Below are positions 20,428 to 38,007 of a stretch of DNA of 42,873 bases, piece by piece. Position 1 is the stretch's first letter. Each line of letters begins with the position of its first letter. Source of the stretch: Verrucomicrobiota bacterium (GTDB taxonomy: Bacteria > Verrucomicrobiota > Verrucomicrobiia > Chthoniobacterales > UBA10450); contig QHNJ01000137.1 of assembly GCA_003218395.1 (NCBI GenBank), positions 1 through 42,873 of the forward strand, in the 5' to 3' direction. Below the pieces are notes generated by a model. The model ran no database searches and was not told the origin of the DNA. It worked only from the letters and a program-made list of their open reading frames with translations. The position numbers and the translations under genes are program-made.

Positions 20428-21126
20428 ATGAAGCTTTACCGTAAAATCCGCAAACTTGCGCATCCGTTGACCTACCGGCGCGCATGGCGCAGAGCGCAAC
20501 GCTCCATTTTTCGCCTGCCGCTTGGGCCGCTGCGGACAACCATCGATCCGGAACGTCTGCGAGAAATCCAACAACGCTACGCCAACGTGCCTGCCGGTTA
20601 TGCCAAATACACGAACGTGGATCCCTGGTTGCGCTTGAATCGCGAACGTGTGCAAGATTTGAAGCTGCATCGTTCGGCGCCGAAGCGCGTGCTCGATCTC
20701 GGGTGCGGAGGTGGATTTTTCTTGTTCATATTAAAAGGGCTTGGTCATTCCGTCCTTGGCCTCGACGTTGGGCGGGTATCTCTTTTTACCGAATTGCTCG
20801 ATCTTTTCGATGTTCCGCGTGTCGTCTGGAGGATCGAAGCGTTCAAGCCGTTGCCCGATCTGGGTGAAAAGTTTGATTGGATCACCGCGTTCTCAGTCAA
20901 TTTTAATCTTTACCATCCATCGCAACGGCGATGGGGGGCGGCGGAATGGGATTTTCTTCTGCGCGATTTGCAGCGACATCTGGCGTCGGGCGGCAAGATC
21001 TTCTTCGGGCTCAATCCCCTCTACGCGGGTGATTACTACACGCCCGAGCTACACGATTTTTTCCTAAGCCGGGGCGCGAACGTCGAACGCGAACGAATCT
21101 TTTTCGATAAGGGGCTGCGCTTTTGA
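20428..21126 (+). CDS. Class I SAM-dependent methyltransferase (UbiG-like fold)
   Basis: A 232-aa methyltransferase. Motif I VLDLGCGGGFFLFIL (about 88-102) followed by VLGLDVG binds SAM; DWITAFSVNFNLY and LASGGKIFFGLNP correspond to motifs II and III. The N-terminus is basic and Arg-rich (MKLYRKIRKLAHPLTYRRAWRRAQ). Substrate unknown; the form is common in polysaccharide or lipid modification clusters. ATG 20428 lies 50 bp after the truncated gene. The product ends RIFFDKGLRF, which looks like a natural C-terminus. Confidence 0.8.
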   Translation: MKLYRKIRKLAHPLTYRRAWRRAQRSIFRLPLGPLRTTIDPERLREIQQRYANVPAGYAKYTNVDPWLRLNRERVQDLKLHRSAPKRVLDLGCGGGFFLFILKGLGHSVLGLDVGRVSLFTELLDLFDVPRVVWRIEAFKPLPDLGEKFDWITAFSVNFNLYHPSQRRWGAAEWDFLLRDLQRHLASGGKIFFGLNPLYAGDYYTPELHDFFLSRGANVERERIFFDKGLRF

Positions 21127-21570
21127 CCCACACCGTACCCGCAATCGCCCCGGGAAAGAGCCAACCCACTTCCGTCGGGGGACCAATCATGTCGTAGATC
21201 GTGCTAAGCGGATGGGCAAGGCCATCCGACAAATCAGAGGGGCATCACCGGACACCGATCGTTTCGCGAGGAGCTTGTCGGGATGCTTCAGTCCTGAAAG
21301 CTTTCGGGATTGCGTACGAGGAATCGATGCTCGGTTGACGAATTCTTCCGTTCCTGCCGGGACTCGATTCATTGCGAATCAGTTTACCCAGCGTTGAAAC
21401 GCTGGTGCTATTTTGAAAAGGCCCACGGCCTGGGATCATTTTGTGAATGTGGCGCTGCCCAGTACCCGTGCGATCGATCCGCAATCACAACAATGGTCCG
21501 CAAAGAAGATTCCGCTGTTCATTCTTTTCGATCAGTTCCTGTCACTGCAAAAACGAACCGGGTCACCCTT
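21127..21570. other. Non-coding stretch, no gene recognised
   Basis: The ORFs listed here are short, in mutually exclusive frames, and resemble nothing I know. The only clear structure is the palindromic element at 21388. The remainder may be debris of older genes (for example, a minus-strand IYDMIGPPTEVGWLFPGAIAGT looks protein-like), but I cannot assign it. Confidence 0.5.
21376..21443 (+). repeat. Dispersed-repeat-like element with CCAGCGTTGAAACGCTGG palindrome
   Basis: The core ccagcgttgaaacgctgg (21388-21405) is a perfect 8-bp stem with a 2-nt loop. The context 'cagtttacccagcgttgaaacgctgg..gctatttt' resembles an abundant intergenic element I recall from Planctomycetes and Verrucomicrobiota. 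This copy is degenerate after the palindrome. Function unknown. Confidence 0.5.
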
Positions 21571-21571
21571 T

Positions 21572-21830
21572 AAAAATATTTCAAAAAAGTGAAAGAAAAG
21601 CTTGCAAGCCTTCTGCACCTTCCATTAAACGGGAATCTGGCGCGCCAAATAGGCCGCGTCAGCCGTTCAAAAATATCTTAAAAAAAGTGAAAAAAAAGCT
21701 TGCAAGCCCTTTGCATTTTCCGTTAATCGGGAGTCTGGCGCGACAAATAAGCCGCGTCAGCCGTTCAAAAATATTTTAAAAAAAGTGAAAAAAAGCTTGC
21801 AAGCCGTCAAAATATCCAATAATCCGTGCC
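21572..21830 (+). promoter_or_regulatory. Tandem array of about 97-bp promoter-like repeats upstream of the TonB receptor
   Basis: Three copies with a 97-98 bp period begin at 21572, 21669 and 21767. Each has an A-rich block (aaaaatat...aaaaaagtgaaaaaa, like an UP element), then gcttgcaagcc with TTGCAA as a possible -35, then after 15-16 bp a TTAA/ATAAT-type -10 (cattaaac, cgttaatc, caataatc). The first two copies continue with ctggcgcg...cgcgtcag, an imperfect dyad, and ccgttc. The third is cut after its -10, about 35 bp before the receptor start. Read as one native promoter plus two duplicated copies; the dyads could be operators. Confidence 0.6.
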
Positions 21831-21859
21831 AAAACCTAACCAAACCAATGGAGAAACCA

Positions 21860-24800
21860 ATGATAAAAAATGTGCTAAATAAGTTCGGATTCGTTCGCGT
21901 CGCTTTTGTAGCGAGCGTCGGATTTCCTTTGATTTTTGCATCAAACGCAGTCGCTCAGTTGGCGGCACCAGCGCAGCCCGCGCCACCCCCGGCTGGGGGT
22001 CAGGCGGAAGTCGAGCGCGTGATCGTGACCGGTTCAAACATTCCGACTGCGGAAGAGACTGGCCCGAATCCGGTGGATACCTACCGGCCGCAGGACATCG
22101 AAAAATTGGGTGTCCGCAACGCGCAGGATCTGCAAAATATTATACCGCAGGAGGCGGGCGGGACTGTCAACCAGAACATCGGTAATGGTGGTGACGGCAC
22201 TATCCAGCTCAACTTGCGCGGTCTGTTGTCCAAGGAGACCCTGGTTCTGGTAGATGGCAAACGTGTCGCAACTAGTGGATTGGGCTCCGCTGGGTTTAGC
22301 GCGGGCGTGGACATTAACCTGATTCCCTTCGTGATGATCGATCACCTCGACATCCTGAAAGATGGCGCCTCGGCTGTCTATGGCGCGGACGCGATCGCCG
22401 GCGTGGTCAACTTCTTTTTGGTCCATAAATTCCGCGGCTTGGAGATCGGGGGCACTTACGGGAACACAAACCTGGGAGCGTCCAATGAGATGGGCGAGTG
22501 GGAGGCATGGATCAAAGCCGGCACCGGAGATGAGAAGACAGACATTGTGGTCATCGCCGATTTCTGGGAGCGTACCGGCGGTTTATTTTCCGCCGACCGT
22601 GATATAAGTAGAAATGCGGGGCAGCAGGTTTTCTGGGGCGGTTTTGATGGTCGCAGCTCGAACTTCCCTGGCTCCATTTCCGCCAGTGGGAGTCCGTTCT
22701 CGTCCGCCAATTTCCGGCTAATCCCAAGCCTGTTTTTCAGCGCCAATTCCCCGCCGCCGCATTCCGCCCCGAACAAGGAGACTTCTCCGTTTTACCTCAA
22801 CAGCGTCGCGGTGCGGTTTCCGCAGCCTGTTGGCACAAACACAGCCCCGGGACTCGATGGAAATTATTTTAGGTTTAACTTCGCGGCTTTCACGCCAGCG
22901 CTTCCGCCGGCCGATCGTCAGAGCTTCTATGGGTCGTTCACCCGCGACATATGCGACAAATACCTGACGATATTTGGTGATTTTAAATATGTCCGCTCAT
23001 TTTTCGATGCGTCCCTGGCAGCCGTGCCGTTTGTGCCCGATCCATTCAAGAATCCAGGCCAAGCCGTAGGGCTTAGTGGTACTTCTGCTGGCATCAGTGT
23101 GCCAATCAGCAATCCGTTTAATCCGTTTACCGTAGGGGACACGAATTGGATATCGCCTAGTGGGCAATTAATCCCGGTGACTACCGGAGTGCGGTTTCGC
23201 GGGATTAACGATACCGGTCCCAGAAGTGAAAAGTTCACTTACTGGGATTCGCTCTTTGACGTCGGGCTCAAGGGTGAGATGGGAGAATTTGGCGATTATT
23301 TCAAGACTTGGAACTGGGAAGCGGGTTTCCGCTATTCCCGGAATGAGGGGCAGGACTTGTCCATAGGAGAAGCCAGCCAGCCTGGGCTAATAAGCGCGCT
23401 TTTGGATTCGAACCCGGCCACTGCGTTTAATCCCTTCCTTGGTTTCGCTGGCCACAACACTGCCGCGGCCAGGTCCGCTGTTTATGTTACCCTGCATAAC
23501 TCAGGCGAATATGAGCTGCCTTTGGGTTATGCGACCATTAACGGCGACCTGTTTAAGCTTCCCGCGGGACCTGTCTCCTTTGCTCTCGGCGGTGAGTATG
23601 ATGGGCCGAGATTCACCCGCGATCGCGACGTGCTCAACAACACGTTTTCATCGATTGGCTCGGTGGATGGGCAAAGCTTCAAGGTAAACCGGGATGTTTG
23701 GTCAATCTACGAGGAAGTGCGGGTACCCTTCACCAGCCCCACGTGGAACTTCCCCGGCTTCTACAGCTTCGAGGTGGACTTTGCCGAGCGCGAGGAATGG
23801 TACAGCAATAACACTTCTTCGGTTCCGGGAATTGTAAAGATCCCAGCGCAGCACAGCCAATATAACGCGCAGAAGCCGAAGATTTCCATCCGCTGGGAGC
23901 CGCTTGATCCCAAATGGATCGGAGCATTGACCTTGCGCGGTAGCTACACCGAAGCGTTTCATGCGCCGAATTTGTCGGAGATTGCGCCCGCGGGCTCGCA
24001 GAACTTCCCGGGGGTCGTCGATCCATTTTCCTCTCAGACCGATATCCAGGTCGAAGAACACATTAGCGGAAACCCCCAGTTGCACCCAGAAGTGGCCTAT
24101 GAATGGACCTACGGGGCGGTTTACAGCCCGAAATGGATCAAGGGCCTGACGCTGAGCGCGGATTGGTGGCATATTGACATGCGCGATATTGTATCGGCCC
24201 TCGGCGCGCAATTCGTTATCGAGCACTTTACCGGCACCGACTTGGTGCTACGTGGTCCCAGTACCGTTCCCGGTGAACTTGGCCCGGTCAATCTGGTCAT
24301 CGACCCCAGCCAAAACCTTGCTGGCGCGATCTTCGAGGGTCTCGATTACGAAGCGATCTATATTCTGGACTCTTCGATTTTTGGTCACGGCGATTTTGGC
24401 AGGGTGACTACCACGGTCAATGGCACCTGGTTATCCCGGGCTGAGCTCCAGACTGGACCCGATACCAAAATGTTCGGTATCGCGGGCGAGTTTTTGCCGA
24501 CGGCATTCAGCCTGACCAGTTCGCTGCCACGGAATCGGGCCAATGGCAGTCTGTTCTACGATGGTCCTGCCGACTCGTGGGCGCAGGGTTTCGATATTGG
24601 CGTGGTAGTCCACTGGATCAGCCAATATGAAGATGACAATATCTCGTTTACGGGTGGCAAGCCGCAAACACCGAGAACGAATCCGCCAGGGACTACCAAT
24701 AAGCTTGGGGAGGATGTTAGCGGCCTGGATGCTGGAGGACCCAGGGGCAGCGCCGCCCCGGGGGGTGCCGCGCGGAAAGTGGCGGCGTGGACTACATTCG

Positions 24801-25114
24801 ACCTGATCGCATCCTATACGTTCAACCTGCCGCCGCCAGCGCCGGCGCCGGTGCCTGGTTTTGCCAAGGATGGCGGTAAGAACGTCGCGATGAAGGACGG
24901 GAAGGAGAAGAATGTCATGCCGGTCTCCACTGCCGATTACAATCCGTGTGGATGGCGCGCGTGGTTAAATGGCACCACCATCACTGCTGGGATACAGAAC
25001 GTGACCGACGAAGATCCGTCGTTCGTGGGTGGCAACTTCGAGAACGGCTACGACGAATCGATTGCCACGATCAAAGGCCGGTTCTGGTACGTCGGTCTGA
25101 AGAAGCGATTCTAA
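21860..25114 (+). CDS. TonB-dependent outer-membrane receptor
   Basis: A 1084-aa beta-barrel transporter powered by TonB-ExbBD. ATG 21860 is chosen over the ORF-track start (21785) because GGAG lies about 6 bp upstream and a signal peptide follows (VRVAFVASVGFPLIFASNAVAQ). After a Pro/Ala-rich spacer comes VERVIVTGSNIPTAEE (TonB-box/plug start), then the plug with QLNLRGLLSKETLVLVDGKR and ILKDGASAVYGADAIAGVVN. The barrel ends in IQNVTDEDPSFVGGNFENGYD and a terminal Phe (GLKKRF), as BAM substrates do. The size and NIPTAEETGPNPV start resemble receptors for large nutrients such as saccharides or peptides; substrate unknown. Preceded by a promoter array and followed by a strong terminator, so probably a highly expressed single-gene unit. 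Confidence 0.93.
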   Translation: MIKNVLNKFGFVRVAFVASVGFPLIFASNAVAQLAAPAQPAPPPAGGQAEVERVIVTGSNIPTAEETGPNPVDTYRPQDIEKLGVRNAQDLQNIIPQEAGGTVNQNIGNGGDGTIQLNLRGLLSKETLVLVDGKRVATSGLGSAGFSAGVDINLIPFVMIDHLDILKDGASAVYGADAIAGVVNFFLVHKFRGLEIGGTYGNTNLGASNEMGEWEAWIKAGTGDEKTDIVVIADFWERTGGLFSADRDISRNAGQQVFWGGFDGRSSNFPGSISASGSPFSSANFRLIPSLFFSANSPPPHSAPNKETSPFYLNSVAVRFPQPVGTNTAPGLDGNYFRFNFAAFTPALPPADRQSFYGSFTRDICDKYLTIFGDFKYVRSFFDASLAAVPFVPDPFKNPGQAVGLSGTSAGISVPISNPFNPFTVGDTNWISPSGQLIPVTTGVRFRGINDTGPRSEKFTYWDSLFDVGLKGEMGEFGDYFKTWNWEAGFRYSRNEGQDLSIGEASQPGLISALLDSNPATAFNPFLGFAGHNTAAARSAVYVTLHNSGEYELPLGYATINGDLFKLPAGPVSFALGGEYDGPRFTRDRDVLNNTFSSIGSVDGQSFKVNRDVWSIYEEVRVPFTSPTWNFPGFYSFEVDFAEREEWYSNNTSSVPGIVKIPAQHSQYNAQKPKISIRWEPLDPKWIGALTLRGSYTEAFHAPNLSEIAPAGSQNFPGVVDPFSSQTDIQVEEHISGNPQLHPEVAYEWTYGAVYSPKWIKGLTLSADWWHIDMRDIVSALGAQFVIEHFTGTDLVLRGPSTVPGELGPVNLVIDPSQNLAGAIFEGLDYEAIYILDSSIFGHGDFGRVTTTVNGTWLSRAELQTGPDTKMFGIAGEFLPTAFSLTSSLPRNRANGSLFYDGPADSWAQGFDIGVVVHWISQYEDDNISFTGGKPQTPRTNPPGTTNKLGEDVSGLDAGGPRGSAAPGGAARKVAAWTTFDLIASYTFNLPPPAPAPVPGFAKDGGKNVAMKDGKEKNVMPVSTADYNPCGWRAWLNGTTITAGIQNVTDEDPSFVGGNFENGYDESIATIKGRFWYVGLKKRF

Positions 25115-25450: not shown

Positions 25451-27388
25451 ATGCAGTACGTTACCGCGTTCTCACGTCCGCAAACTGTTCCGGCTGGGCT
25501 TGCTGCCGCGCGAAAGCCTAACCTGTGGATTCTGGACAGTTGGCGCGACCTGATCTTGTACGTCTGCACGCCGCTGGTGATCGTGCCGATCTTTCTCGTG
25601 GCGCAGGCGCGTTGGAGCGCGGAAGACATTTATCTTTTTGTCGCTGCCTTCGGCGCGATGGGTCACCACTTGCCAGGAATGATTCGCGCCTATGGCGATC
25701 GGGCGTTATTCCAGCGCTTCAAGTGGCGCTTCATTTTTGCACCGATTTTTTTGGTGGTCGTCTCCACGATCTTTTCGTTGTGGGACCTTAAAGGCATTGT
25801 GCTAGTCGCCTTTATTTGGGGCGTCTGGCACGGCATGATGCAAACGTATGGGTTCTGTCGCATCTACGATGCGAAAGTGGGCTCGTTCGCTGAGCTGACG
25901 CGTCGTCTTGATTTCGCATTGTGCGGGATTTGGTTCGCCACCGCGGTCCTTCTCTCATCGCAGCGAATGACTGATACCTTGGAGACTTATTACGCTGCGG
26001 GAGGGCCCTTCATTCCGCCCGGCTTCCTCCGGGCAGCACAGCAGGGGCTGCTTGCGTTCGCCCTCTTAGTTTCAGCCGTGTTTCTGGCAAATTTTATCCG
26101 GATGTGGACTAGCGGGAAGCGGCCTAGTCCGGTAAAGCTGGTTCTTCTCATCACGAGCATTTCTTTTTGGTGGTACTCCAACAACATCGTGGCCAGCGTT
26201 CTCGTCGGCATTGCCTTGTTCGAAGTATTTCACGACGTCCAGTACCTCTCGCTGGTTTGGATCTATAATCGTAAACGGGTTGAGACCGACAACTCGATCG
26301 GCGGGTTCATGCGCTTCGTATTCCGGCGCAGCGGTTCGCTGATCGGTCTATACGTGGGCCTGATCTTCGCCTACGGGGCGCTGGGTTATTTCAAGTCGAG
26401 CATCGGCATCGACGTAGTCAAACGCATCCTCACTGGTGTAGTGACCGCTTCGGCGCTGCTCCATTTTTATTACGACGGATTCATCTGGAAAGTGCGCGAG
26501 AAATCTACGCGACAATCTCTCGGCATCGGCGGCGGGACAACAGATGTTTTGACGAGCGGTTTTCTACCCAGCTGGGCCTTGCATGGCGCGAAATGGTTCG
26601 CTGTTTTTGTCATTCCGCTTGGCGCACTTTGGTTTGGGCAAGTGCGGCTCCCTCAGAATGAACTTGAACATTTAGCCTGGATCGCCGCCGATCTTCCTGT
26701 TTCCGCCCGGGCGCATACCAATTACGCCAAGGCTCTGCAGGAGGCTGGCCGACTCGATAAAGCAGCCGATGAATTTTCCGCTGCGCTTCGTCTTAATCCC
26801 GCTTCGGCAAAGGCCCACGCCAATCTGGCCAGCGTCCTGATTGGAAAGGGAAACCTGGAAGATGCGCAAACCCATTTCGAAACAGCACTGCGACTCGACT
26901 CTAACAACGCCGAGTTACACTCCGGTTATGCCTATCTTCTGGAGCGACTCGATCGCCCTGAGCAAGCAGCAGCGGAAATCGAAGCGTCCGTCCGCTTGGA
27001 CCCACAGTCTGCACAAGCTCGGTATAGCTATGGCGCATTTCTGGAGAAACACGGCAAACTCGAGGAGGCAATTGTGCAGTATCGACGGGCGATTCAAGCT
27101 GACCCGCGTCATGTGGATGCTCATCTCGATCTGGCAAGCGCGCTTTTCCAAGAGGGCGATTTGCAGGGAGCCGAGGCACATTATCTGGAGGGAAGCCGGC
27201 TTAAGCCAGAGCTCGCCCAACCTCACAACGACCTGGGAAAAGTTTTTATGCGCGAGGGCAACGTTTCCAGCGCGATCGCGCAATTCGAAGAAGCGCTACG
27301 TCTTCATCCCGACTTCCCGGAGGCGGAGGAGAATCTGCGCAGCGCGAGAGAAACCGAGGCTCAGTCTCGTTGGCAATCGCCGAGGTAA
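25451..27388 (+). CDS. Multi-pass membrane protein with His-rich motifs fused to six TPRs
   Basis: A 645-aa protein in two halves. Residues about 30-395 are a polytopic membrane domain with regularly placed His motifs: GHHLPGM (71-77), WHGMMQTYG (126-134), FHDVQYLSLVW (260-270) and LHFYYDGFIWKVRE (337-350). Such spaced His/Asp sets can bind di-iron or heme in membrane oxidases and hydroxylases, but I do not recognise the family and assign no activity. Residues about 419-622 are six consecutive TPRs (for example AKAHANLASVLIGKGNLEDA), probably a protein-binding module. It precedes the first TMTC-like gene by 79 bp on the same strand, so it may share its transcript and partners. ATG 25451 start. 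Confidence 0.7.
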   Translation: MQYVTAFSRPQTVPAGLAAARKPNLWILDSWRDLILYVCTPLVIVPIFLVAQARWSAEDIYLFVAAFGAMGHHLPGMIRAYGDRALFQRFKWRFIFAPIFLVVVSTIFSLWDLKGIVLVAFIWGVWHGMMQTYGFCRIYDAKVGSFAELTRRLDFALCGIWFATAVLLSSQRMTDTLETYYAAGGPFIPPGFLRAAQQGLLAFALLVSAVFLANFIRMWTSGKRPSPVKLVLLITSISFWWYSNNIVASVLVGIALFEVFHDVQYLSLVWIYNRKRVETDNSIGGFMRFVFRRSGSLIGLYVGLIFAYGALGYFKSSIGIDVVKRILTGVVTASALLHFYYDGFIWKVREKSTRQSLGIGGGTTDVLTSGFLPSWALHGAKWFAVFVIPLGALWFGQVRLPQNELEHLAWIAADLPVSARAHTNYAKALQEAGRLDKAADEFSAALRLNPASAKAHANLASVLIGKGNLEDAQTHFETALRLDSNNAELHSGYAYLLERLDRPEQAAAEIEASVRLDPQSAQARYSYGAFLEKHGKLEEAIVQYRRAIQADPRHVDAHLDLASALFQEGDLQGAEAHYLEGSRLKPELAQPHNDLGKVFMREGNVSSAIAQFEEALRLHPDFPEAEENLRSARETEAQSRWQSPR

Positions 27389-27467
27389 AACCTCCGGTCG
27401 GCCGCGCTCAGCATGGCTCGCATTTACGAGCTGGCGTGATCTCCGTGGTTAACTGGGACAAAAACTA

Positions 27468-29648
27468 ATGTCCGGGAACGCCACGCCTTCAGGAACGAGC
27501 AAACAGAACCAGCTCCGATCCCCATTCTGGCAGCGGAATTGGCTTTGGGGGCTCTTTCTGATTGCCCTGGTTTCAATAGCATACACCCGAGTCTTTAACG
27601 CCGGCTTCATCTGGGACGACGAATCGCATCTGACGCAAAATCCCTGCATTATTGGTCCGCTCGGACTTAAAGAGATCTGGACGAGCGCGCGAGCCGTCTA
27701 TTACCCGCTCGTGCTGACGAGCTTCTGGAGTTTGCATAAGCTCGTTGGCTTAAGTCCATCGCCATACCACATTCTCAATGTGCTGCTGCACGCGGCATCG
27801 GCGGTCTTGCTCTGGCGCGTCTTGCGGCAACTCGATGTTCGCGGAGCGTGGCTGGGAGCACTGCTTTGGGCATTGCATCCGGTAATGGTGCAATCGGTCG
27901 CCTGGGTCACGGAGCTAAAAAATACTCAGTCGTGTCTCTTTTATCTTTTGTCGATCTTCTGGTTTTTGAAAGTGGACGCTGAGGAGAACGGGAACAGCGT
28001 TCGCTGGTGGCGCTTTGGCCGGGCGCTCCTGTTCTTTGTTGTGGCGATCCTGAGCAAGCCATCCACGGTCATGTTGCCTGCTGTAATCGCGCTCTGTGTC
28101 TGGTGGCGGAGAGGACGAGTCCGGTGGCGCGACCTCGCGACTCTCGTTCCGTTTGCGCTGATTTCAGCGCTTGCCAGCGTGTGGACGATTTGGGAACAGA
28201 AGTTCCATTCTGGTGCGACTGGTTCTGAGTGGGCCCAGTTGTGGCCGGAGCGGCTCATCATCGCGGGTCGCGCGATATGGTTTTATCTGGGCAAACTGAT
28301 TTGGCCCGATCCGCTCATTTTCATCTATCCGCGTTGGGAGATTAATTCGTTGCAACTGACGGCTTATCTGCCGCTGCTGGCAGCGTTGGCTGGTTTGTTT
28401 GCTTTGTGGCGAATTCGTGGGAAGTGGAGTCGCCCCGTGTTTTTTGCCGCTGCATACTTTGTGATTTCGCTATTTCCTGTGCTCGGCTTTTTCACCGTTT
28501 ACTTCTTCCGCTACTCGTTTGTGAGCGATCATTTCCAATATCTGGCGAGCATGGGACCGCTCGCGTTAGCCGGAGCTGGTATTACAGCGGTGGCCGATTC
28601 CCTCAAATGGAAACCTTTTCTCCGCGCGGCCATCTGCGGAATCCTCCTGCTTTTTGGCTTTTTGACGTGGCGGCAGAGCGGGATCTACCATGACTTAGTA
28701 AACTTGTACACGGCGACGCTGGCAAAAAATCCCGGCTGCTGGATGGCGCATTACAATCTGGGCATCGTCCTGCGCGACCAAGGCGAAACTGACGAGGCGA
28801 TAACTCATTATCGGCAGGCTGTCGCGCTGCGGCCGAATTACGCAGAAGCGCATTACAATCTTGGACGTGCTCTGGCTGAAAAAGGCGAATTTGAGGACGC
28901 GATCGCGCATTACGAAAAAGCGCTGGCCATAAATCCTGCCGACGCGGAAGCTCACAACAACTTGGGTGCCACGCTTTTTATGAAAGCACGCGTCGATGAT
29001 GCAATCACTCACTACCAGAAGGCGCTCGCGATTCGGCCGGATTACTCTGAGGCGTCCTGTAATCTGGCGAACGCGCTTCTTTCCAAAGGTGATATGGACG
29101 GTGCGATCATCCGGTACATGGCGTGCGTCGCTTTGTTGCCGAATCAGGCCGAGGCTCAATACAATCTGGCGAGCGCGCTTCTTCGAAAAGGCCGAACCGA
29201 CGAGGCCATTGATCACTACCGAAAAACGCTCGAATTGCATCCCGAGAATGCCGACGCGCACGCGAATTTGGGGAGCGCGTTTCTTGCGAAGAATCGCATC
29301 CAGGATGCGATTCTTCAATACAGAGACGCGCTTCGGATAGCACCGGGAAATGTGGCTGCCCAAAGCAATCTGGCGTGGCTGTTGGCGACTTCTCGGGACC
29401 AATCACTTAGAAACGGGCCAGAAGCTGTCCGACTGGCTGAGCAGGCTAGCCGCCTGACCGGCGGAACTCGGCCAGTTATCTTACGGATGCTCGCCGCTGC
29501 CTACGCGGAAACTGGCCACTTTTCTGAGGCTACCGAAACCGCTCAACAGGCATTGCAACTGGCCAATGGCCAAGGCAACACCGTTTTGGTTGATGCCCTT
29601 CGAAGAGAAATCGCGCTGTACCAATCGGGTCGGCCGTATCACAAGTAA
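27468..29648 (+). CDS. TMTC-like GT-C membrane glycosyltransferase with TPRs (paralog A1)
   Basis: A 726-aa protein with about 10-11 TM segments, then six TPRs. In the first exposed loop it has FNAGFIWDDESHLTQNP, the acidic pair typical of GT-C enzymes. ALHPVMVQSVAWVTELKNTQSCLFYLL matches the HP..VE(A/S)VAW..RK..L signature of TMTC/DUF1736 proteins, and the last luminal loop ends AKNPGCWMAHYNLG where the TPRs begin. After the TPRs is a module shared by all four paralogs (NLAWLLATSRDQSLRNG, LAAAYAETGHF, ending LYQSGRPYHK). Animal TMTC1-4 are O-mannosyltransferases of cadherins (GT105); bacterial homologs are mostly uncharacterised. A lipid-linked sugar donor and periplasmic acceptor are inferences. 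ATG 27468. Confidence 0.82.
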   Translation: MSGNATPSGTSKQNQLRSPFWQRNWLWGLFLIALVSIAYTRVFNAGFIWDDESHLTQNPCIIGPLGLKEIWTSARAVYYPLVLTSFWSLHKLVGLSPSPYHILNVLLHAASAVLLWRVLRQLDVRGAWLGALLWALHPVMVQSVAWVTELKNTQSCLFYLLSIFWFLKVDAEENGNSVRWWRFGRALLFFVVAILSKPSTVMLPAVIALCVWWRRGRVRWRDLATLVPFALISALASVWTIWEQKFHSGATGSEWAQLWPERLIIAGRAIWFYLGKLIWPDPLIFIYPRWEINSLQLTAYLPLLAALAGLFALWRIRGKWSRPVFFAAAYFVISLFPVLGFFTVYFFRYSFVSDHFQYLASMGPLALAGAGITAVADSLKWKPFLRAAICGILLLFGFLTWRQSGIYHDLVNLYTATLAKNPGCWMAHYNLGIVLRDQGETDEAITHYRQAVALRPNYAEAHYNLGRALAEKGEFEDAIAHYEKALAINPADAEAHNNLGATLFMKARVDDAITHYQKALAIRPDYSEASCNLANALLSKGDMDGAIIRYMACVALLPNQAEAQYNLASALLRKGRTDEAIDHYRKTLELHPENADAHANLGSAFLAKNRIQDAILQYRDALRIAPGNVAAQSNLAWLLATSRDQSLRNGPEAVRLAEQASRLTGGTRPVILRMLAAAYAETGHFSEATETAQQALQLANGQGNTVLVDALRREIALYQSGRPYHK

Positions 29649-29669
29649 AGTCGTTGCCCCACTAGCAGC

Positions 29670-29995
29670 GAAAGGGCACTGCTCATTTTATCACTTTTCG
29701 ACTCGCTGACGCGATTCCGCCAAAGCTGCTCAGCCAATGGGAAACAGAGCGTAAATGTTGGCTGCGGCCGCCTCCCGAGCCGTGGTCGTTCGAAGTGGAG
29801 CAGGAATATCGTCGGCGGTTTTCTGGCACGATAGAACGCTGGCTCGATGCCAGCCATGGTTGGTGCCTGCTGCGCGAAAGCAACACGCCAAATTGGGTCG
29901 GGAATACGCTGCAGCACTTCGAGGGCGCGTGCTATGCACAGATCGCGTGGCTGGGTAATGCCTAATCATGTCCATACGGCTTTTGTTCGGCACGA
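29670..29995 (+). mobile_element. Remnant of a REP-associated tyrosine transposase (RAYT, Y1_Tnp)
   Basis: The plus strand reads GTAHFITFRLADAIPPKLL, then QWETERKCWL, EPWSFEVEQEYRRRFSGTIE and RWLDASHGWCLLRES in one frame, matching the N-terminal part of RAYT transposases (ITFRLAD, WLDxGxGxCxLR). After one frame change, VMPNHVH gives the HUH metal-binding motif of the Y1 transposase family. The first about 20 residues and everything after the HUH motif, including the catalytic Tyr, are gone; the element ends against the convergent TPR fragment. Full members are about 170-280 aa. RAYTs mobilise REP palindromes, which is notable because REP-like palindromes lie in the next gene. Not listed as one ORF in the track. 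Confidence 0.75.
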
Positions 29996-30025
29996 CTAAG
30001 AGCTTTTCCCATGTACCTCGGCGGC

Positions 30026-30853
30026 TTAGAAACCGCCGCTCCTTGAATGCTCGTGATACGGCAGGCCGAGCTCGTAGAGCGCAATTTCATCCCGAAGGGC
30101 GTTGGCCAGGCCGGATTTGCCCTCCGTGCCTGCGATGCGCAGAGCTTGCTCGGCTGCTGCAACGGCCTGGGCAAACCGGCCGCCCTCAGCGCGAGCAGCC
30201 GCGAGAGTCCGGAGATAAGTGGGATCTTTGCCGCCGGAAAGTTGCACGGCCTGTTCGGCGAGCTCGATTGCCCGATTCCCATCGCGAATTGAAGCATCGG
30301 AGGAGGTCGCGAGGAGCCACGCCAAATTGTTCCGAGCCAGCGAGTCTTGCTGGGAGATCCGTGCCGCATGCTCGTACTCGGCGATTGCATCTTTCTGTAG
30401 TCCGCTTTTAAGAAACGCGTTACCCAAAACAGTGTGGAAGCCTGAGTCGTTCGGCAGAGTCGGAAGCGCCTTCTGCCATTGCGCGATCGCTTCGCCGATC
30501 CGGCCCTGCTGAAATAGAACGCTGCCAAGGTTGAAATACGCGTCGCCATAATCAGGCCGCAGTTTCGCCGCTTTCTCGTAATGGCCGATCGCTTCACCCA
30601 GCAGACCTTTTCGGGCGAGGGCGTTGGCAAGATTAGTCTCGATGAGCGCCCCGCCAAGGTTGTAATGGGCGGAAGTGTTGCCGGATCGAATCTTCAACGC
30701 CGTCTCGAAGTGCGAAATCGCCCTGTCCAATTCGCCCCGTCGCAGGAAAAGATAGCCGAGATTGTTATGCGCCGTGTCGTTGTCAGGGGTAGGCGCAGAA
30801 TTGCTTGTAGCCACGGCCCTGTGGGCCGTTTGTTCGGACTCCGCGTGATCCAC
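30026..30853 (-). CDS. TPR half of a split TMTC-like gene (paralog B1, 3' part)
   Basis: A 275-aa soluble fragment of TPRs plus the C-terminal module of the TMTC-like family (NNLAWLLATSSDASIRDG, then YLRTLAAARAEGGRF, YELGLPYHE). TPRs include NDTAHNNLGYLFLRRGELDRA, aligning with NDVAENNLGIVLLRKGKLDES of the intact paralog B2, so the correct continuation of the membrane half (30783..32090) is in this other frame. One TPR is also partly deleted (LGGALIETNLANALARKG). ATG 30853 lies within the inserted repeat and overlaps the upstream ORF by 71 bp. It could be translated by itself as a TPR protein, but a broken gene is more likely. Confidence 0.7.
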   Translation of the reverse strand: MDHAESEQTAHRAVATSNSAPTPDNDTAHNNLGYLFLRRGELDRAISHFETALKIRSGNTSAHYNLGGALIETNLANALARKGLLGEAIGHYEKAAKLRPDYGDAYFNLGSVLFQQGRIGEAIAQWQKALPTLPNDSGFHTVLGNAFLKSGLQKDAIAEYEHAARISQQDSLARNNLAWLLATSSDASIRDGNRAIELAEQAVQLSGGKDPTYLRTLAAARAEGGRFAQAVAAAEQALRIAGTEGKSGLANALRDEIALYELGLPYHEHSRSGGF

Positions 30854-32090
30854 GAGTGACCGACCGCAGGCCGGTTGCGACAGGGCGCGAGCCGGAGTTG
30901 CGCATCATTATGGGCGCCATCAGATCCGTGATGCCCCAAACAATCAGCACATACAAACCGATCTGTGGCAGGTAAGTGTATCGATCCGCGCGCGCTTGCT
31001 CGCCGACCTGCACCAAGCCGATCACGGGCACGAGCATCCCGACATACCAAAACCAGCCGGTGAAAATGTAAGGCCGTTCTTTCCTCCAATGGATTGCCCA
31101 CAGGCTGACTGCGATGAGAAATGCAATTGCCAAAAGAACCTGCCAGGGCGGCAGTTGATCGTTGGGGTGAGGATAAAAAGCCGCCAGCCGCGCGGGCCAG
31201 AACATCTGCCAAATGTAGGCAACATAACTGATAACCGCGTTGTTCAGTCGCCACATAAAGGGCAACTGTTCAATCGCGCCGGCGCTCTGATTTTGTACCA
31301 GCAATGTCGCCACACACGAAATCGCGGACAAGGCGAACAATGGAATCTTCTCCACGATCAGCTTGAAGATCCGACCACGGACCACGGACCCCGCGCCGTC
31401 GCCGTAACCTCTTTGGCGCGCCGAAGGCTCGCGACTGACTCCTGATCTCTGATTTCTGACGTCTGACGTCTGACGTCTGACTCTATTGACCGGCCAGTAA
31501 TCGAGGAGCAAAAGCACGAATGGAAGCGTCACCAGCATCGGTTTGGACATGAGGATGAAAAATACGGCGCTGAGCACGTCTTTTCGCTCGGAGACCCAGG
31601 CGACCGATTCCACGTGCAATGGATGAATAGCGAACAGCGATGCCACGAAGGCACTTTGCCAAATACTGCCAGTCCGGCTCGGACCGCCGGTCATCTGCCT
31701 GAGCACGAAAAAGAGCAACACGACGGCGACCGAGTGCAGCAAGACATTGGTGAAGTGATGTCCGCCAGCCTTCAGCCCGTACAACTGGCAGTCGAGCATG
31801 TGCGAAATCGTCGTGAGCGGATGCCAGTTTCGCGCATGAGCATGGGTAAATGCGCCGATTACGCCATCCACCGAAAGTCCTCTGGTGATGGAGGGGTTTT
31901 CATACACATACACATGATCGTCGACATCGACGAAATCGTGTCCGAGAGTTTGTCCAAAAACTAGCCAAGTAATCGCGATGAGGGCGAGGCAAACATAGAA
32001 AGACGCGAATCTCGAGGAGGAGCGCTTTTTTAACCGACTGTTGAAAAACTCGGGCGTGTTCTTCTTACTCCTGCTCCCGCTCTTACTCAT
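30783..32090 (-). CDS. Membrane half of a split TMTC-like gene (paralog B1, 5' part)
   Basis: A 435-aa polytopic fragment close in sequence to B2 (32123..34066): FGQTLGHDFVDVDDHVYVYENPSI (acidic pair), WHPLTTISHMLDCQLYGLKAGGHH, and FAIHPLHVESVAWVSERKDVLSA. Compared with B2 it has three lesions: an in-frame loss of about 30 residues between FFILMSKP and its expected TM; a loop replaced by short tandem repeats (RRQTSDVRNQRSGVSRE); and, after YLPQIGLYVLIVWGITDLM, replacement of the last TM and luminal loop by repeat-encoded NSGSRPVATGLRSVTRG ending in an early stop. Likely a pseudogene. ATG 32090; 32 bp after the stop of B2, so the pair is a tandem duplication. Confidence 0.75.
   Translation of the reverse strand: MSKSGSRSKKNTPEFFNSRLKKRSSSRFASFYVCLALIAITWLVFGQTLGHDFVDVDDHVYVYENPSITRGLSVDGVIGAFTHAHARNWHPLTTISHMLDCQLYGLKAGGHHFTNVLLHSVAVVLLFFVLRQMTGGPSRTGSIWQSAFVASLFAIHPLHVESVAWVSERKDVLSAVFFILMSKPMLVTLPFVLLLLDYWPVNRVRRQTSDVRNQRSGVSREPSARQRGYGDGAGSVVRGRIFKLIVEKIPLFALSAISCVATLLVQNQSAGAIEQLPFMWRLNNAVISYVAYIWQMFWPARLAAFYPHPNDQLPPWQVLLAIAFLIAVSLWAIHWRKERPYIFTGWFWYVGMLVPVIGLVQVGEQARADRYTYLPQIGLYVLIVWGITDLMAPIMMRNSGSRPVATGLRSVTRGSRGVRTNGPQGRGYKQFCAYP
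30795..30905. repeat. REP-like element inserted in TMTC-like paralog B1
   Basis: Contains acggccctgtgggccgt (30813-30829, 7-bp stem, 3-nt loop) and accgcaggccggt (30863-30875, 4-bp stem, 5-nt loop). It replaces DNA that in paralog B2 encodes about 45 residues, and shifts the frame. The stem geometry matches the palindrome in dgt. Borders are estimated from where similarity to B2 stops. Confidence 0.6.
31373..31390. repeat. 7-bp tandem repeat GACCACG inside paralog B1
   Basis: gaccacggaccacggacc is two and a half units of a 7-bp repeat. It lies in the cytoplasmic-loop insertion of the TMTC-like fragment and encodes part of SVVRGR on the minus strand. Confidence 0.65.
31448..31482. repeat. 7-bp tandem repeat TCTGACG inside paralog B1
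   Basis: Five consecutive units (tctgatt, tctgacg x3, tctgact). It preserves the reading frame of the membrane fragment and encodes TSDVRNQRSG-type residues absent from the paralogs. Such 7-mers resemble simple repeats scattered in related genomes. Confidence 0.75.
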
Positions 32091-32122
32091 CCGTTTGAGA
32101 ATTCCTCATGAAAGCGTTTTCG

Positions 32123-34066
32123 TCACGGTGACGAACTGCCATTTGCGAGACTTGGATCGCGCAGCGGTCTTCCGGCCTGGTAAAGAGCGATATTGCTCTG
32201 GAGCTCGTCCGCTAGGCCAGGGTTGCCCTGGTGATTGGCTAATTCAATGCCGCGCTGCGCAGTTTCAATTGCCTGTGTGAAAAGGCCGCTCTCGGCATAG
32301 GCAGCTGCCAATATGCGGAAAATCATTGGGATCTTCTCGCCCGACAAACGCAGCGCCTTTTCGGCCAGTTCAACGGCTTGGGGGCCATTTCGAATTGAGT
32401 CTTCCGGACACGTTGCGAAGACCCATGCCAGATTACTGGCAGCATTTCCGTTTTCGGGCTGAATTGCCAGCGTTTCCTGCCATTGCTCGATCGCTTCTCT
32501 TACACGGCCCTGCTGGATAAGAACAGTGCCCACAATATTACGTGCCTCCACGTTCTCGGGCTGAATTTCCAGCAACTTGCGATAATGAATCATCGCATCA
32601 GCTACTTGTCCCTTTTGAAGAAAAGCCTTGGCAAGATTGTCGTGGGCAGGCGCGTTTTCGGGCCGAAGATTCACGGCTGCCTGGAGTAGAGAAATCGATT
32701 CGTCCAATTTGCCTTTTCGAAGGAGAACGATGCCAAGATTATTTTCGGCAACGTCGTTGTTCGAGGTTACTGCAAGTGCGTGAGTGAACAGCGTTTCACT
32801 ATTGCGCCAAAAGGTTGTCTGAATCCACCCGCGCCAACTTAATACGCCAATGATTATCGCGGCACTGGCACCCAAAATTTCGCGTTGATGACGCCATGAA
32901 GCCGACCAATCGGCGACAGTCCAAGTGCCCATGATATAAAGGCCTATCTGCGGCAGGTAAGTGTATCGATCGGCCCGCCCTTGCCATCCGACTTGCACCA
33001 AACCAATCACCGGCACAAGCATCCCCAGGTACCAAAGCCAGCCAGTGATGACGTAGGGCCGTTTTTTCCGCACAGCAAACGCCGCTGCACTAATCGCAAT
33101 CAAAGCCGCGAGCGCGAGGATGATCCCCCAGGCCGGCAGGCGATTTTCTGGATGAGAATAAAAAACCGCGAGTTTCACTGGCCAGAGCATTTGCCAAATG
33201 TAGGCAACATAGGTCACTAATGCGTTGGTCGCCCGCGATGAAATCGGAAGTTGCTCGGTCCAACCAAGCGCATGTCGTTGGGCGAGAAATGTAACGATGC
33301 CTGAGACGGCGGACAGCCCAACCAGTGGAATCTTCTCTAGAATCAGCTGTCCCGCGACTGATTGTCGATCCCACAAGCGAAGTGGCGGAGGTTTTAGTTT
33401 GACTTCGGCTTTCGGTGCAAATCGTTGGAACGGCCAGTAATCCAGAAGCAAAAGTACGAAGGGGAGCGTCACCAGCATCGACTTGGACATTAGACCAGCG
33501 GTGAACGGTAACGCTACGGTGAGATAGCGCCGAATTGAGGGCGCACGCACGTGATGAACATATGCGAGCAGGGTCAGCATGAAGAAAACGCCGCTCAGCA
33601 CATCCTTGCGTTCTGCCACCCATGCCACGGATTCCACGTGCAACGGATGAATCGCGAACAGGGTCGCAACAAAAGCGCTTCGCAAAAGTGCGCCCGTCAT
33701 TTGTTTGAAAACGAGAAAGAGCAAGACCACGGAAATTGTATGGAGAAGCACATTGGTAAAATGATGTCCTCCCGCCCTCAGCCCATATAACTGGCAGTCC
33801 AGCATGTGCGAAATCGTTGTAAGCGGATGCCAGTTCTCCGAGTGGATATGTGTGAATGCCCAGCCAATAGCGGCGATGCTGAGACCGCTGGTTATCTTGG
33901 TATTTTCATAGACGTAGCGCGGATCGTCGTAGTTGACGAAGTCATGGCCGAGAGTTTGGCCAAAAACAATCCAGGTAAGTGCCGCCAGAAAGATGCAGAC
34001 GCTGATGCTTACCCAGCGGCGGTTCGCTTTGGAGGAAGCTATCGATCGGATACTGAGGGCGTGCAC
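32123..34066 (-). CDS. TMTC-like GT-C membrane glycosyltransferase with TPRs (paralog B2)
   Basis: A 647-aa intact copy of the B type. About 10-11 TM segments carry FGQTLGHDFVNYDDPRYVYEN (acidic DD in the first loop), NWHPLTTISHMLDCQLYGLR, FAIHPLHVESVAWVAERKDVLSG, LMSKSMLVTLPFVLLLLDYWP, and GQGRADRYTYLPQIGLY-like WQGRADRYTYLPQIGLY. The last luminal loop is FWRNSETLFTHALAVTSNN, then three TPRs and the shared C-terminal module (NLAWVFATCPEDSIRNG, ILAAAYAESGLF). HMLDCQLYG and RADRYTYLPQIGLY are typical of this bacterial TPR-GT-C group. Role probably O-glycosylation of periplasmic or surface proteins, by analogy with TMTC; not shown. GTG 34066 is the only plausible start. Confidence 0.82.
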   Translation of the reverse strand: MHALSIRSIASSKANRRWVSISVCIFLAALTWIVFGQTLGHDFVNYDDPRYVYENTKITSGLSIAAIGWAFTHIHSENWHPLTTISHMLDCQLYGLRAGGHHFTNVLLHTISVVLLFLVFKQMTGALLRSAFVATLFAIHPLHVESVAWVAERKDVLSGVFFMLTLLAYVHHVRAPSIRRYLTVALPFTAGLMSKSMLVTLPFVLLLLDYWPFQRFAPKAEVKLKPPPLRLWDRQSVAGQLILEKIPLVGLSAVSGIVTFLAQRHALGWTEQLPISSRATNALVTYVAYIWQMLWPVKLAVFYSHPENRLPAWGIILALAALIAISAAAFAVRKKRPYVITGWLWYLGMLVPVIGLVQVGWQGRADRYTYLPQIGLYIMGTWTVADWSASWRHQREILGASAAIIIGVLSWRGWIQTTFWRNSETLFTHALAVTSNNDVAENNLGIVLLRKGKLDESISLLQAAVNLRPENAPAHDNLAKAFLQKGQVADAMIHYRKLLEIQPENVEARNIVGTVLIQQGRVREAIEQWQETLAIQPENGNAASNLAWVFATCPEDSIRNGPQAVELAEKALRLSGEKIPMIFRILAAAYAESGLFTQAIETAQRGIELANHQGNPGLADELQSNIALYQAGRPLRDPSLANGSSSP

Positions 34067-34168
34067 TTGCGGCGATGTGATTGTGAAGGAGGCGAGGAAC
34101 CCCGCTAGTCCAGGAGCCGAAGCCGCCGCGCCCTAAAAAGGTTGCAATTCGCATGGATAACGGATGAA

Positions 34169-35821
34169 TTAGGATTTCCTTTCATAGATCAAAATATAAT
34201 GCCCTAGCTGCGGCACCGATTTCGGTACCTCCCCCAAATAAAAATCCGCTCCATCCGACGTGATGATATTCACGAGGCCGGCTCCGTCATAATACCTTCC
34301 GGTATACTCGTTCGCCCACGCAAAGATCCGCCGATCAGATCCGGGTTGTTCTAACCATGAATCCTCCATCACGACTGAAACCAGATATTTTGGGTGCGCG
34401 CGCTCAATTTCGCGAATCATTTCCTGTTGCATCTGATGCGCATACTTTTGCGGTTCCATTAAGCAGTAAGTGTAAATGTATCCGGTCGCGGAATGCCGGT
34501 TCGAATAAAAATAAATTTGAGGCTCAGATCCTAACACTACGATCGTGTCGTTGTGGCTTGTATGGTCGCGGACATATTCAGCAATCCTAATGGACTCTGG
34601 GAATGGGCTCTCCGGATAAATCATTCGGCAAGCTTCAACTGGAGAGACTCCAAAGAAGAACTTTTTCCCCAAAAAAATCGGCAGGGTTAATACCGCACCA
34701 AGGAGAAGCAGCGGAATAAACCGAGTCACGCTCGTATGACTATCCGTGAGATCCGACAACTTGCTGATGGCAACGCCGACGAACAGCGAAACCGCTGGAA
34801 GAACCAAAATGAAATAGTGGAATCGAAAGTAAAATCCGGAACATAGCGCCAGCACCGAAAATCCGAGTAGTCCAAGCAAAAATCGTGTGCTGGCGCGCAT
34901 TCGCCGATCCCATAGGCCCGCAACGACCCCAATTCCAGCGAGTACCCAGAGCGCCCAGCCAGCGCTAATGACCTCTGTTACGCTCCGAAAAAAAATCTGC
35001 GATGCTTGGGAGAGAGGAACTAAACTGCCATACTGGCGCGCGTAGTCGATTGTCCAAAACAAGAACTGTTTGAATACGCCTGCGCACCAGAGAAGGAAAC
35101 AAGTGATTCCGAAGGGGAGAATTACACCAGCGTCGAAGATCAGATTTCGCAGGAGGATGGTGTTTAGGCCAACGCGGCGGCTATCCCTGCACAAGAGATA
35201 AATCGCTCCAAATAAAATGAAAAAAATCGCAGGCTGCTTCATCAGGAGGCCAAGGCCAAAGAGCAATCCGCTCGCGAACAGTCGCCCGAACGCCTGCCGA
35301 TCCGATTCGTCGAGCAGGAGCAGCGTCCCACCGAGCACTGGCAGCATTACAAAATGTGTCGCGTGACCGGCGAAGCCGAGCACGGAGGGACTCACAGAAA
35401 GAACCGCATAACTTGCCGCCGCCGCGATGCCCGCTGTCGTATTTACCAGTCGTCGCCCAAGGAAAAAGATCAGCACGATTGTGGCAGCGTTCACCAAGAG
35501 CAAACCCAAATGAATTCCGATGACTGTTTGTCCGAAGATCGACATGATCACGGCATAAGCGGCATAGGTTCCGGGGAACTTCATGTTGTAAGCGAGTTTG
35601 TATGGGGGGATGCCTTGCAACAAAAGTTGGCCGGCATAAGCGTACTCGCCTTCGTCGCGTTCCAGCGGAATTCCGAGCAGTCGAATTCGGATCGCGACAG
35701 TAAGGCCAAAGATGATTACCGCCAAGGCCCACCATGCGACTCGCAAGATTTTGTCATGGCTGTCGATCTTGTTGATCACAGAAAGGCTATTCCGGTGAAA
35801 ACTACCGGGGTGCAACTGCAC
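34169..35821 (-). CDS. GT39/PMT_2-like membrane glycosyltransferase
   Basis: A 550-aa polytopic protein of the ArnT/PMT type (GT-C), which moves a sugar from a polyprenyl-phosphate donor. LERDEGEYAYAGQLLLQGIPPY (about 53-74) is the conserved first-loop motif with catalytic-type acidic residues, followed by NMKFPGTYAAYAVIMSIFG and GRRLVNTTAGIAAAASYAV. About ten TM segments are followed by a soluble C-terminal domain (VVLGSEPQIYFYSNRHSATGYIY). GTG 35821 start. It sits between the TMTC-like genes and is divergent from A2 by about 110 bp, suggesting a shared glycosylation role. Acceptor unknown. Confidence 0.82.
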   Translation of the reverse strand: MQLHPGSFHRNSLSVINKIDSHDKILRVAWWALAVIIFGLTVAIRIRLLGIPLERDEGEYAYAGQLLLQGIPPYKLAYNMKFPGTYAAYAVIMSIFGQTVIGIHLGLLLVNAATIVLIFFLGRRLVNTTAGIAAAASYAVLSVSPSVLGFAGHATHFVMLPVLGGTLLLLDESDRQAFGRLFASGLLFGLGLLMKQPAIFFILFGAIYLLCRDSRRVGLNTILLRNLIFDAGVILPFGITCFLLWCAGVFKQFLFWTIDYARQYGSLVPLSQASQIFFRSVTEVISAGWALWVLAGIGVVAGLWDRRMRASTRFLLGLLGFSVLALCSGFYFRFHYFILVLPAVSLFVGVAISKLSDLTDSHTSVTRFIPLLLLGAVLTLPIFLGKKFFFGVSPVEACRMIYPESPFPESIRIAEYVRDHTSHNDTIVVLGSEPQIYFYSNRHSATGYIYTYCLMEPQKYAHQMQQEMIREIERAHPKYLVSVVMEDSWLEQPGSDRRIFAWANEYTGRYYDGAGLVNIITSDGADFYLGEVPKSVPQLGHYILIYERKS

Positions 35822-35928
35822 GATTCACTGCGCGCCATTCTTGCCAAATGGGGCTCGCTCTCTGAATTAAACGGCAGGACTGTCTGAGCACTTTACTGCC
35901 TGTGGCATGGGAATAGTAATCGCCTAAC

Positions 35929-38007
35929 GTGGGACCGGTCGTGCACAAAATCGTCCAATGCCTTTTTTCTGCGCGTGGTCGCTCCTGTCTTTTTGGGCTG
36001 CTTTTAGTTGCTGTGACGATCTTTGCCTATCGCCCGGCGTTGCACGGCGGCTTTATCTGGGATGACGATGACTATGTGATAAATAACGGGTTGCTAACTG
36101 CACCCGATGGACTGCGGCGGATTTGGTTCTCCCTCGACTCGCCTTCGCAGTATTTCCCGTTGGTTTATACAACCTTTCGCATCGAGTACGCACTCTGGGG
36201 GCTTAATCCATCCGGCTATCATTGGGTCAACCTGCTACTTCATGTTGCCAACGCACTGCTGGTGTGGCGATTGTTGGTGCGCTTGAAAGTGCCGGGCGCG
36301 TGGCTGGCGGGAGCAATCTTCGCGCTGCATCCAGTGCAAGTGGAATCGGTCGCTTGGATCACGGAACGGAAAAATGTGCTGATGGGCTTTTTCTTTCTGC
36401 TAACGCTTCTTGCCTGGATTGCGTTTGTCGACGAGCGGACGAAACGGCCCTGGCGATTTTATGGGCTGGCTCTGATCCTTTATCTCCTGGCGCTTTCGGC
36501 CAAGACGACGGCCTGCACGCTGCCAGCGGCGCTGTTCTTGATTTTATGGTTGCAGAAGAAGCCCATCAGTTGGAAGAGAGTTTTCCAGATCGTTCCCTTC
36601 CTCGTTCTTGGCATCGCCATGGGTTTATTAGCGATGTGGTGGGAGCGTTATCACCAGGGGACGAGTCGAGCCATTTTTACGTTCCTGAGCCCAATCGAGC
36701 GGGTCCTCGTCGCAAGCCGGGCTGTTTGGTTTTACCTGAGTAAACTAATCTGGCCATCCAATCTGACCTTCATTTATCCGCGATGGGATATCGCGCCGAC
36801 TCATCTGCTCGATTACACGTGGCTGTTGGCGGGAATGGTTCTCTGCGTGGCAATCTATTTTCTGCGGCGATATCTGGGGCGCAGCGTAGAAGTCGCAACG
36901 CTGTGTTTCGTAGCCACGCTTAGCCCGGTGCTTGGGTTCATCATGCTCTACACATTTCGTTACACATTTGTGGCCGATCATTATCAATACCTGGCCTGTA
37001 TCGGCCCGATCGCGCTGGCGTCGGCTGCTCTAATCAATTTGGCCGACGCGTTTGAGCGCAGTCGCACCTTAATTTTAAGCGCGGTGCTCTGTGTGGTCGC
37101 AGTCCTGGCGGCGCTGACGTGGCGACAAGCCGCCATGTATGGCGACATCGAAACGCTCTGGCGGACGACGCTGGCCAGAAATCCCGATTGCTGGATGGCT
37201 CACAATAACCTGGGCATTGTGCTTTTCCAGAAAGGCGAAATTAACGAGGCAATCGCCAATTACCGGACAACTTTGCAAATGCAACCGGATTTTTGGGATG
37301 CGGATTACAATCTCGGCAGTGCGCTTCTCCAAAAAGGCAAGGTGGACGAGGCAATCGCTTATTGCAACAGAGCCGTAGCGAGCGAGCCAAATGATCCAGA
37401 TGCCCAAGTGGCTCTCGGCAACGCTCTTGTTCAAAAGGAACGAATCGACGAAGCGATCGTTCATTACCAAAGGGCGGTGGCAATAAGGCCCGATTACTTC
37501 ATTGCCCGCTACAGTCTTGGCCATGCTCTTCTTAAAAAAGGCGAAATCGACGCTGCAATCTCTCATTGCCGGGCTGCCTTATTGATTCAGCCTAAAAATC
37601 CAGATGCTCACACGACGCTGGCCGTCGCCCTTGATGAAAGAGGTCAAACGGCGGAGGCCATCACGCACTACAAAAACGCCCTGCAGATTTCTCCGAGATC
37701 TATCTCTGCTGCGAACAATCTGGCCTGGCTGTTGGCAACTTCTTCTACCGCGTCATTACGAAACGGCGACAAAGCCCTAGAGCTAGCAAGGCAAGCCAAT
37801 CAACTCTCGGGCGGTGCCAACCCGCTTGTGCTCGGCACGTTGGCCGCAGCGTACGCGGAGACCCGGCAATTTGAAAGAGCGATCGAGATCGCGCAGGCAG
37901 CCTCGCAGTTAGCAAAGATGCAGGGTGAGAGTGCCTTGGTCGTGAGGCTCCAGCAAGAAACTGAACTTTATGAGATGAGCTTGCCTTACCGCGAAGCGCC
38001 GAAGTAG
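35929..38007 (+). CDS. TMTC-like GT-C membrane glycosyltransferase with TPRs (paralog A2)
   Basis: A 692-aa paralog closest to A1 (27468..29648). It has HGGFIWDDDDYVINNGLL, ALHPVQVESVAWITERKNVLMGFFFLL, a central GTSRAIFTFLSPIERVLVAS loop, YTFRYTFVADHYQYLACIGPIALA, and ARNPDCWMAHNNLG marking the TPR start. Five TPRs are followed by the shared C-terminal module (NNLAWLLATSSTASLRNG ... LAAAYAETRQF ... LYEMSLPYREAPK). GTG 35929 start (GTG 35941 is a close alternative). Transcribed towards the alkaline-phosphatase-like gene. Confidence 0.82.
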   Translation: MGPVVHKIVQCLFSARGRSCLFGLLLVAVTIFAYRPALHGGFIWDDDDYVINNGLLTAPDGLRRIWFSLDSPSQYFPLVYTTFRIEYALWGLNPSGYHWVNLLLHVANALLVWRLLVRLKVPGAWLAGAIFALHPVQVESVAWITERKNVLMGFFFLLTLLAWIAFVDERTKRPWRFYGLALILYLLALSAKTTACTLPAALFLILWLQKKPISWKRVFQIVPFLVLGIAMGLLAMWWERYHQGTSRAIFTFLSPIERVLVASRAVWFYLSKLIWPSNLTFIYPRWDIAPTHLLDYTWLLAGMVLCVAIYFLRRYLGRSVEVATLCFVATLSPVLGFIMLYTFRYTFVADHYQYLACIGPIALASAALINLADAFERSRTLILSAVLCVVAVLAALTWRQAAMYGDIETLWRTTLARNPDCWMAHNNLGIVLFQKGEINEAIANYRTTLQMQPDFWDADYNLGSALLQKGKVDEAIAYCNRAVASEPNDPDAQVALGNALVQKERIDEAIVHYQRAVAIRPDYFIARYSLGHALLKKGEIDAAISHCRAALLIQPKNPDAHTTLAVALDERGQTAEAITHYKNALQISPRSISAANNLAWLLATSSTASLRNGDKALELARQANQLSGGANPLVLGTLAAAYAETRQFERAIEIAQAASQLAKMQGESALVVRLQQETELYEMSLPYREAPK

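Follow-up and report, generated by a model that had tools for sequence, protein, structure and literature searches.

A tandem array of three predicted primary-sigma-type promoters upstream of a TonB-dependent receptor gene in an Udaeobacter-like soil verrucomicrobial genome

Analysis of the window (the whole stretch of 42,873 nucleotides, from an Udaeobacter-like soil Verrucomicrobia MAG) showed three near-identical promoter-like units in series before one TonB-dependent receptor gene. The array is read here as three tandem primary-sigma-type promoters for that gene, with a probability of roughly three in four. Tandem promoters are the best reading because the same layout of A-tracts, CTTGNCA, a 17-18 nt spacer and a TA box also precedes several unrelated genes. 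The units were named from outside to inside as P3, P2, and P1, with P1 proximal to the receptor start.

TRF on the window placed the tandem array at 21558-21805, with a period of 98, 2.6 copies, 87% matches and a score of 366, and a repeat search showed that successive unit copies started 98 and 97 bp apart, the three units spanning approximately 21566-21825. Each unit consisted of helically phased A-tracts, CTTGCAA, a spacer of 17-18 nt and a TAA box, and the preliminary description of three units of about 97 bp, each with an A-rich block, TTGCAA and a TA box, was borne out by both searches and by reading of the sequence. The array is well above chance expectation and is also kept in relatives. 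A small ORF of 110 aa spanning the array is unlikely to be coding because the periods of 98 and 97 are not multiples of three. The features of the array and of its surroundings are shown in Table 1.

Table 1. Positions in the window of the array units, the linker elements and the neighbouring features, with the TTGCAA and TA boxes as read on the sequence
Feature	Position	Strand	Description
P3, outermost	21569-21631	+	A-tracts 21569-21599, -35-like TTGCAA 21602-21607, 18-nt spacer, -10-like TAAACG 21626-21631
P2	21664-21729	+	CGTTC 21664-21668, A-tracts to 21697, TTGCAA 21700-21705, 18-nt spacer, TAATCG 21724-21729
P1, proximal	21762-21825	+	CGTTC, A-tracts 21767-21794, TTGCAA 21797-21802, 17-nt spacer, TAATCC 21820-21825
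Bipartite element of P1	21742-21766	+	GACA 21742-21745, N16, CGTTC 21762-21766
Decayed bipartite copy before P2	21644-21668	+	GCCA...CGTTC
Conserved short leader	21833-21859	+	CCTAACCAAACCAAT then GGAGAAA, Shine-Dalgarno 21850-21856
TonB-dependent receptor downstream of array	21860-25114	+	Pfam Plug 1e-16; 1084 aa without stops
Methyltransferase-like gene upstream of array	20428-21126		
Terminator-like hairpin	21388-21405	+	CCAGCGTTGAAACGCTGG + TGCTATTTTG; consensus match only

The alpha subunits of RNA polymerase bind UP elements at approximately -41, -52 and -63, and phased A-tracts bend DNA. The centres of the A-runs lay 10-12 bp apart, at -6, -17, and -28 from TTG (approximately -41, -52, and -63), and the A-tracts occupied the alpha-subunit positions of an UP element near -41 and -52. 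The TTGCAA of the three window units matched TTGACA at 4/6 positions, and the relatives mostly carried TTGTCA or TTGCCA (5/6). Spacers fell within 16-18 nt both in the window (Table 1) and in the relatives (17-18 nt). The -10 boxes scored 2-3/6 against the E. coli TATAAT, with the TA box itself conserved at 17-18 nt, and their register was not unique, since P1 also offers AATAAT at 15 nt. A scan of the array with the E. coli consensus found no promoter on the + strand. Among 32 P1 units, TTG and the last A of the -35 (97-100%), TAA of the -10 (97-100%) and the two proximal A-tracts (mostly 94-100%) were conserved, and spacer positions 7-12 were conserved at only 34-53%.

The layout of A-tract, CTTGNCA-like -35 and TA box recurred at 10 non-receptor sites, assigned by N-terminal sequences to four or five gene families. 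At these sites TA stood at 17/18 in 10/10 against a background of 4%, a comparison that is partly circular in that the search profile includes the -10. Intergenic regions yielded too few sites to define a genus-wide -10 consensus, and a search for generic AAAAAANNTTGACA promoters gave too few matches. Upstream of the 'GLPPGFDCSTIH' proteins at two loci (L293 and L296), the A-tract/CTTGNCA promoter type had a second promoter-like sequence, TTGACG-N18-TATAAG/TAAAAG, not identical to it and lying further downstream.

The duplication of a promoter with UP-like A-tracts, as proposed earlier, was well supported by the fixed position, the selective conservation, the layout at unrelated genes and the presence of 2-3 copies in the genus. 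In the mechanism proposed, the phased A-tracts upstream of the -35 in each unit would curve the DNA and serve as an extended UP element, with a predicted alpha-subunit contact at the A-tracts. The CTTGNCA-like -35 and the TA-box -10, 17-18 nt apart, would set the transcription start, and the most likely effect of the extra units would be additional initiation events or buffered expression of an abundant envelope protein.

In the draft genome of origin (2.95 Mb, 335 contigs), unit sites were found in the window (contig C135, three units), before another TonB receptor on C217 (one unit) and before a non-receptor gene on C262 (one unit), the remaining matches being noise. Single units before other TonB receptors, which the preliminary description had raised, were represented by the one on C217. 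Further GCTTGCAAGC sites in this genome had no A-tract. The array is not a widespread repeat, the unit standing before two receptors and one other gene in this genome, and a dispersed repeat (REP/MITE) was ruled out, with copies not scattered over many unrelated genomic places.

A 65-nt DNA profile was built from 28 units, including those of the window, which match by construction. Among 83 genomes of the family, strong matches were found in 13/14 genera, almost only before one receptor family; the other genera normally had a single unit, the window's genus two (or three). Outside the family, one genome matched, weakly, among 197 genomes of the order (E up to 1e-5). The -35 of P1 lay approximately 62-65 bp before the receptor start codon in nearly all matched genomes, and in the genus the second unit lay at 150-161 bp and the third at 255-260 bp. 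The unit is very probably a family-wide promoter of the TonB receptor, neither unique to the window strain nor a dispersed repeat. The leader CCTAACCAAACCAAT/GGAGAAA was common to nearly all array-bearing receptor homologues.

Within the receptor clade there was normally one array-bearing receptor per genome, with the exception of G001, which had two arrays. Receptor paralogues 70-78% identical to the window receptor had no unit in several genomes, and the A-tract unit was missing at G007:C81, G007:C167, G022:C120, G004:C104, L041, L048, and L118. The L041 and L048 paralogues carried another conserved upstream string, CAGTCATTC[GA]ATTTTGCA. A single array-bearing copy amid array-less paralogues recalls an expression-site layout. 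Six contigs labelled Acidobacteria or Nitrospira (L152, L167, L170, L176, L187, and L193) encoded receptors approximately 65-76% identical to the window receptor, and these labels are probably binning errors.

The conserved element of the linker was GACA-N16-CGTTC, which was tied to P1 in 13 genera. GACA stood 20-21 bp before GTTC in 51/64 proximal units by script, with several more recognised by eye that the script had misread, and before the outer units in just 1/25. For genera g2-g9 (g10, g12, g13, and g14 left out), the GACA-GTTC spacing was present in 26/26 regions against a shuffled mean of 0.25, and for genera g10-g14 it was covered by the count in proximal units. The distance from GTTC to the -35 was 34-36, or 25 in two separate lineages, and that from the -10 of P2 to GACA was 17-20 bp in nearly all scored genus relatives and 27-30 in other genera with a placeable P2. 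Both shifts amount to approximately one helical turn, and the GACA-GTTC distance stays fixed.

On its sequence, GACA-N16-CGTTC resembles either a sigma-type promoter or a protein-binding site of rigid geometry. ECF41 promoters have the form TGTCACA-n16-CGTC, the second half being tabulated also as CGTT and TGTT (PMC3426412). The element is like ECF promoters in its two-part form, its spacer within 16 +/- 1 and its CGTC/CGTT-like second half, and differs from ECF41 in that the first half lacks TGTC (GACA instead of TGTCACA) and that it sits directly upstream of the A-tracts of another promoter. That it would be a second, different promoter type (of an ECF-type sigma) or an activator site set by helical turns between P2 and P1 is conceivable, with the odds against it. 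If this were true, two regulatory systems would drive one receptor and would have been kept family-wide for essentially one gene. The window proteins that were scanned contained no sigma domain and included no sigma factor. A regulon of GACA-N16-CGTTCAAA was also sought and rejected, as the other genomic matches, on visual inspection, showed recurring codon-like strings and resembled conserved coding sequence, and no regulon emerged.

These spacings bear on the strongest alternative to three promoters, namely that only P1 is a real promoter, with the outer copies serving in cis as bending sites or regulator-binding sites upstream of it, as a tandem operator array. Steps of about one turn in both distances are as expected for elements on the same face of the helix, and the bending by phased A-tracts would suit such a role, but one-turn losses are also possible by slippage between A-tracts, and the loss of one A-tract in this way could account for the step too. 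Against this alternative, the P2 units of the genus genomes that were scored retained TTG..A and a TA box 17-18 nt away, and GACA was missing before 24/25 outer units. Several other genera also had a different promoter-like element, TAGGCA-N17-TAGAAC, at the place of P2 (CTAGGCA-N17-TAGAAC or a close variant, preceded by a T-tract, in genera g2, g3, g4, g12, and g14). A single promoter with accessory copies is considered unlikely on this evidence, and three tandem promoters remain the preferred reading.

The count of copies in relatives, which the preliminary description had regarded as informative, gave three units in three genomes (that of the window, G012, and G013) and two in more than 20, which make up most of the genus relatives with the array, the differences (2 vs 3) being seen between species. 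The array of G012, the closest relative, was 88% identical to that of the window. P2 and P3 were mutually the closest copies, with an identity over the spacer and -10 region of 75% in the window, 96% in G012, and 100% in G013, and the third copy appears to be a recent local expansion. All three window units read TTGCAA, compared with TTGTCA in 29/32 P1 units, a pattern suggestive of homogenisation among the copies. A plain duplication of P1 probably does not account for P2, and the -10 surroundings of the CTAGGCA-N17-TAGAAC element (CCGATAGAACG and CCGCTAGAAGGGAAA) resemble those of the genus P2 (CCGCTAGACGGGAAA).

The order of events proposed for P1, P2, and P3 follows sequence similarity, without a tree. 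P1 would be the ancestral family promoter, with GACA-N16-CGTTC as its own upstream site. The simplest story would be an old two-promoter layout in which P2 was older and separate, its -35 and A-tracts having become P1-like in the window's genus. P3 would be a recent copy of P2 plus linker made by unequal recombination, and the step to three units was probably taken more than once.

A recombinogenic or selfish repeat with no regulatory role would fit the variable copy number (2 vs 3) and the partly homogenised units within a genome, but the repeat is not dispersed and is present only before particular genes, and the conservation of its blocks and its almost constant distance from the start codon over 13 genera largely refute this idea, which is now highly improbable. 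An equally improbable alternative is that the array acts as a structured leader RNA or attenuator, for which the two dyads in the first two linkers would speak; the dyad is, however, lost in the closest relative, and only about 28 nt of leader follow P1. The letters of this dyad (ctggcgcg/cgcgtcag) were indeed found after the first two units. Its role as a working part did not hold, as it was broken in G012 (CTGGCGCG...CCTGTCAC) and absent in most relatives, and its reading as a hairpin or operator was rejected on the same grounds. No Rfam family was found in the array (the best match, E 0.71, lay outside it), and a riboswitch or sRNA was rejected on this search.

Tandem UP-type promoters are a known kind of arrangement, and GACA-N16-CGTTC is the one unexplained conserved element. 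The array is like the E. coli rrnB P1 and other UP-element promoters in that a -35/-10 promoter is preceded by A/T-rich alpha-subunit sites near -41 and -52, and like the tandem rrn P1/P2 layout in having more than one promoter in series. P1 of the window has an exact match to the UP consensus AAAWWTWTTTTNNNAAA, lying upstream of its E. coli position by about one turn. Unlike rrnB P1, the array has three phased A-tracts, near-identical duplicated units, a weak match to TATAAT and a protein-coding target. In the UP element of rrnB P1, the As at -41 to -43 are critical (PMC4390567).

The H. pylori sabA promoter is similar to the array in serving an outer-membrane protein gene, in its UP-like A-boxes and in repeat variation between strains (PMC4081817). 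Its output is set by the helical phase of the A-boxes to the core promoter, with a T-tract acting as a rheostat (PMC4081817). In sabA, a homopolymer varies in length by slippage, whereas in the array the variable part is the entire 98-bp promoter unit, and the differences observed are between species only.

Udaeobacter-type soil Verrucomicrobia are abundant and largely uncultured, and their promoters seem unmapped: the open-licence papers searched included none on TonB promoters of Udaeobacter or on start sites in Verrucomicrobia, and gave no mapped promoter for the phylum. The locus offers a candidate family-wide promoter model (phased A-tracts, CTTGNCA, 17-18 nt, and a TA box), a likely example of promoter copy number differing from species to species, and a conserved two-part candidate regulatory site, GACA-N16-CGTTC, without a matching known protein. 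The array also marks one receptor, often amid array-less paralogues, as the one whose expression is probably maintained at a high level.

The array probably starts its own transcription unit because a methyltransferase-like gene and the terminator-like hairpin at 21388 lie upstream, and this hairpin may separate the array from that gene. The receptor scored below every NCBIfam curated cut-off. Downstream of the receptor, window positions 25451-38004 contained five TPR-rich proteins, running in both directions, with one PMT_2 mannosyltransferase-like gene among them, and a small TCTGACG-type tandem repeat (periods of 14 and 21 bp) was found at 31435-31481 within a predicted ORF.
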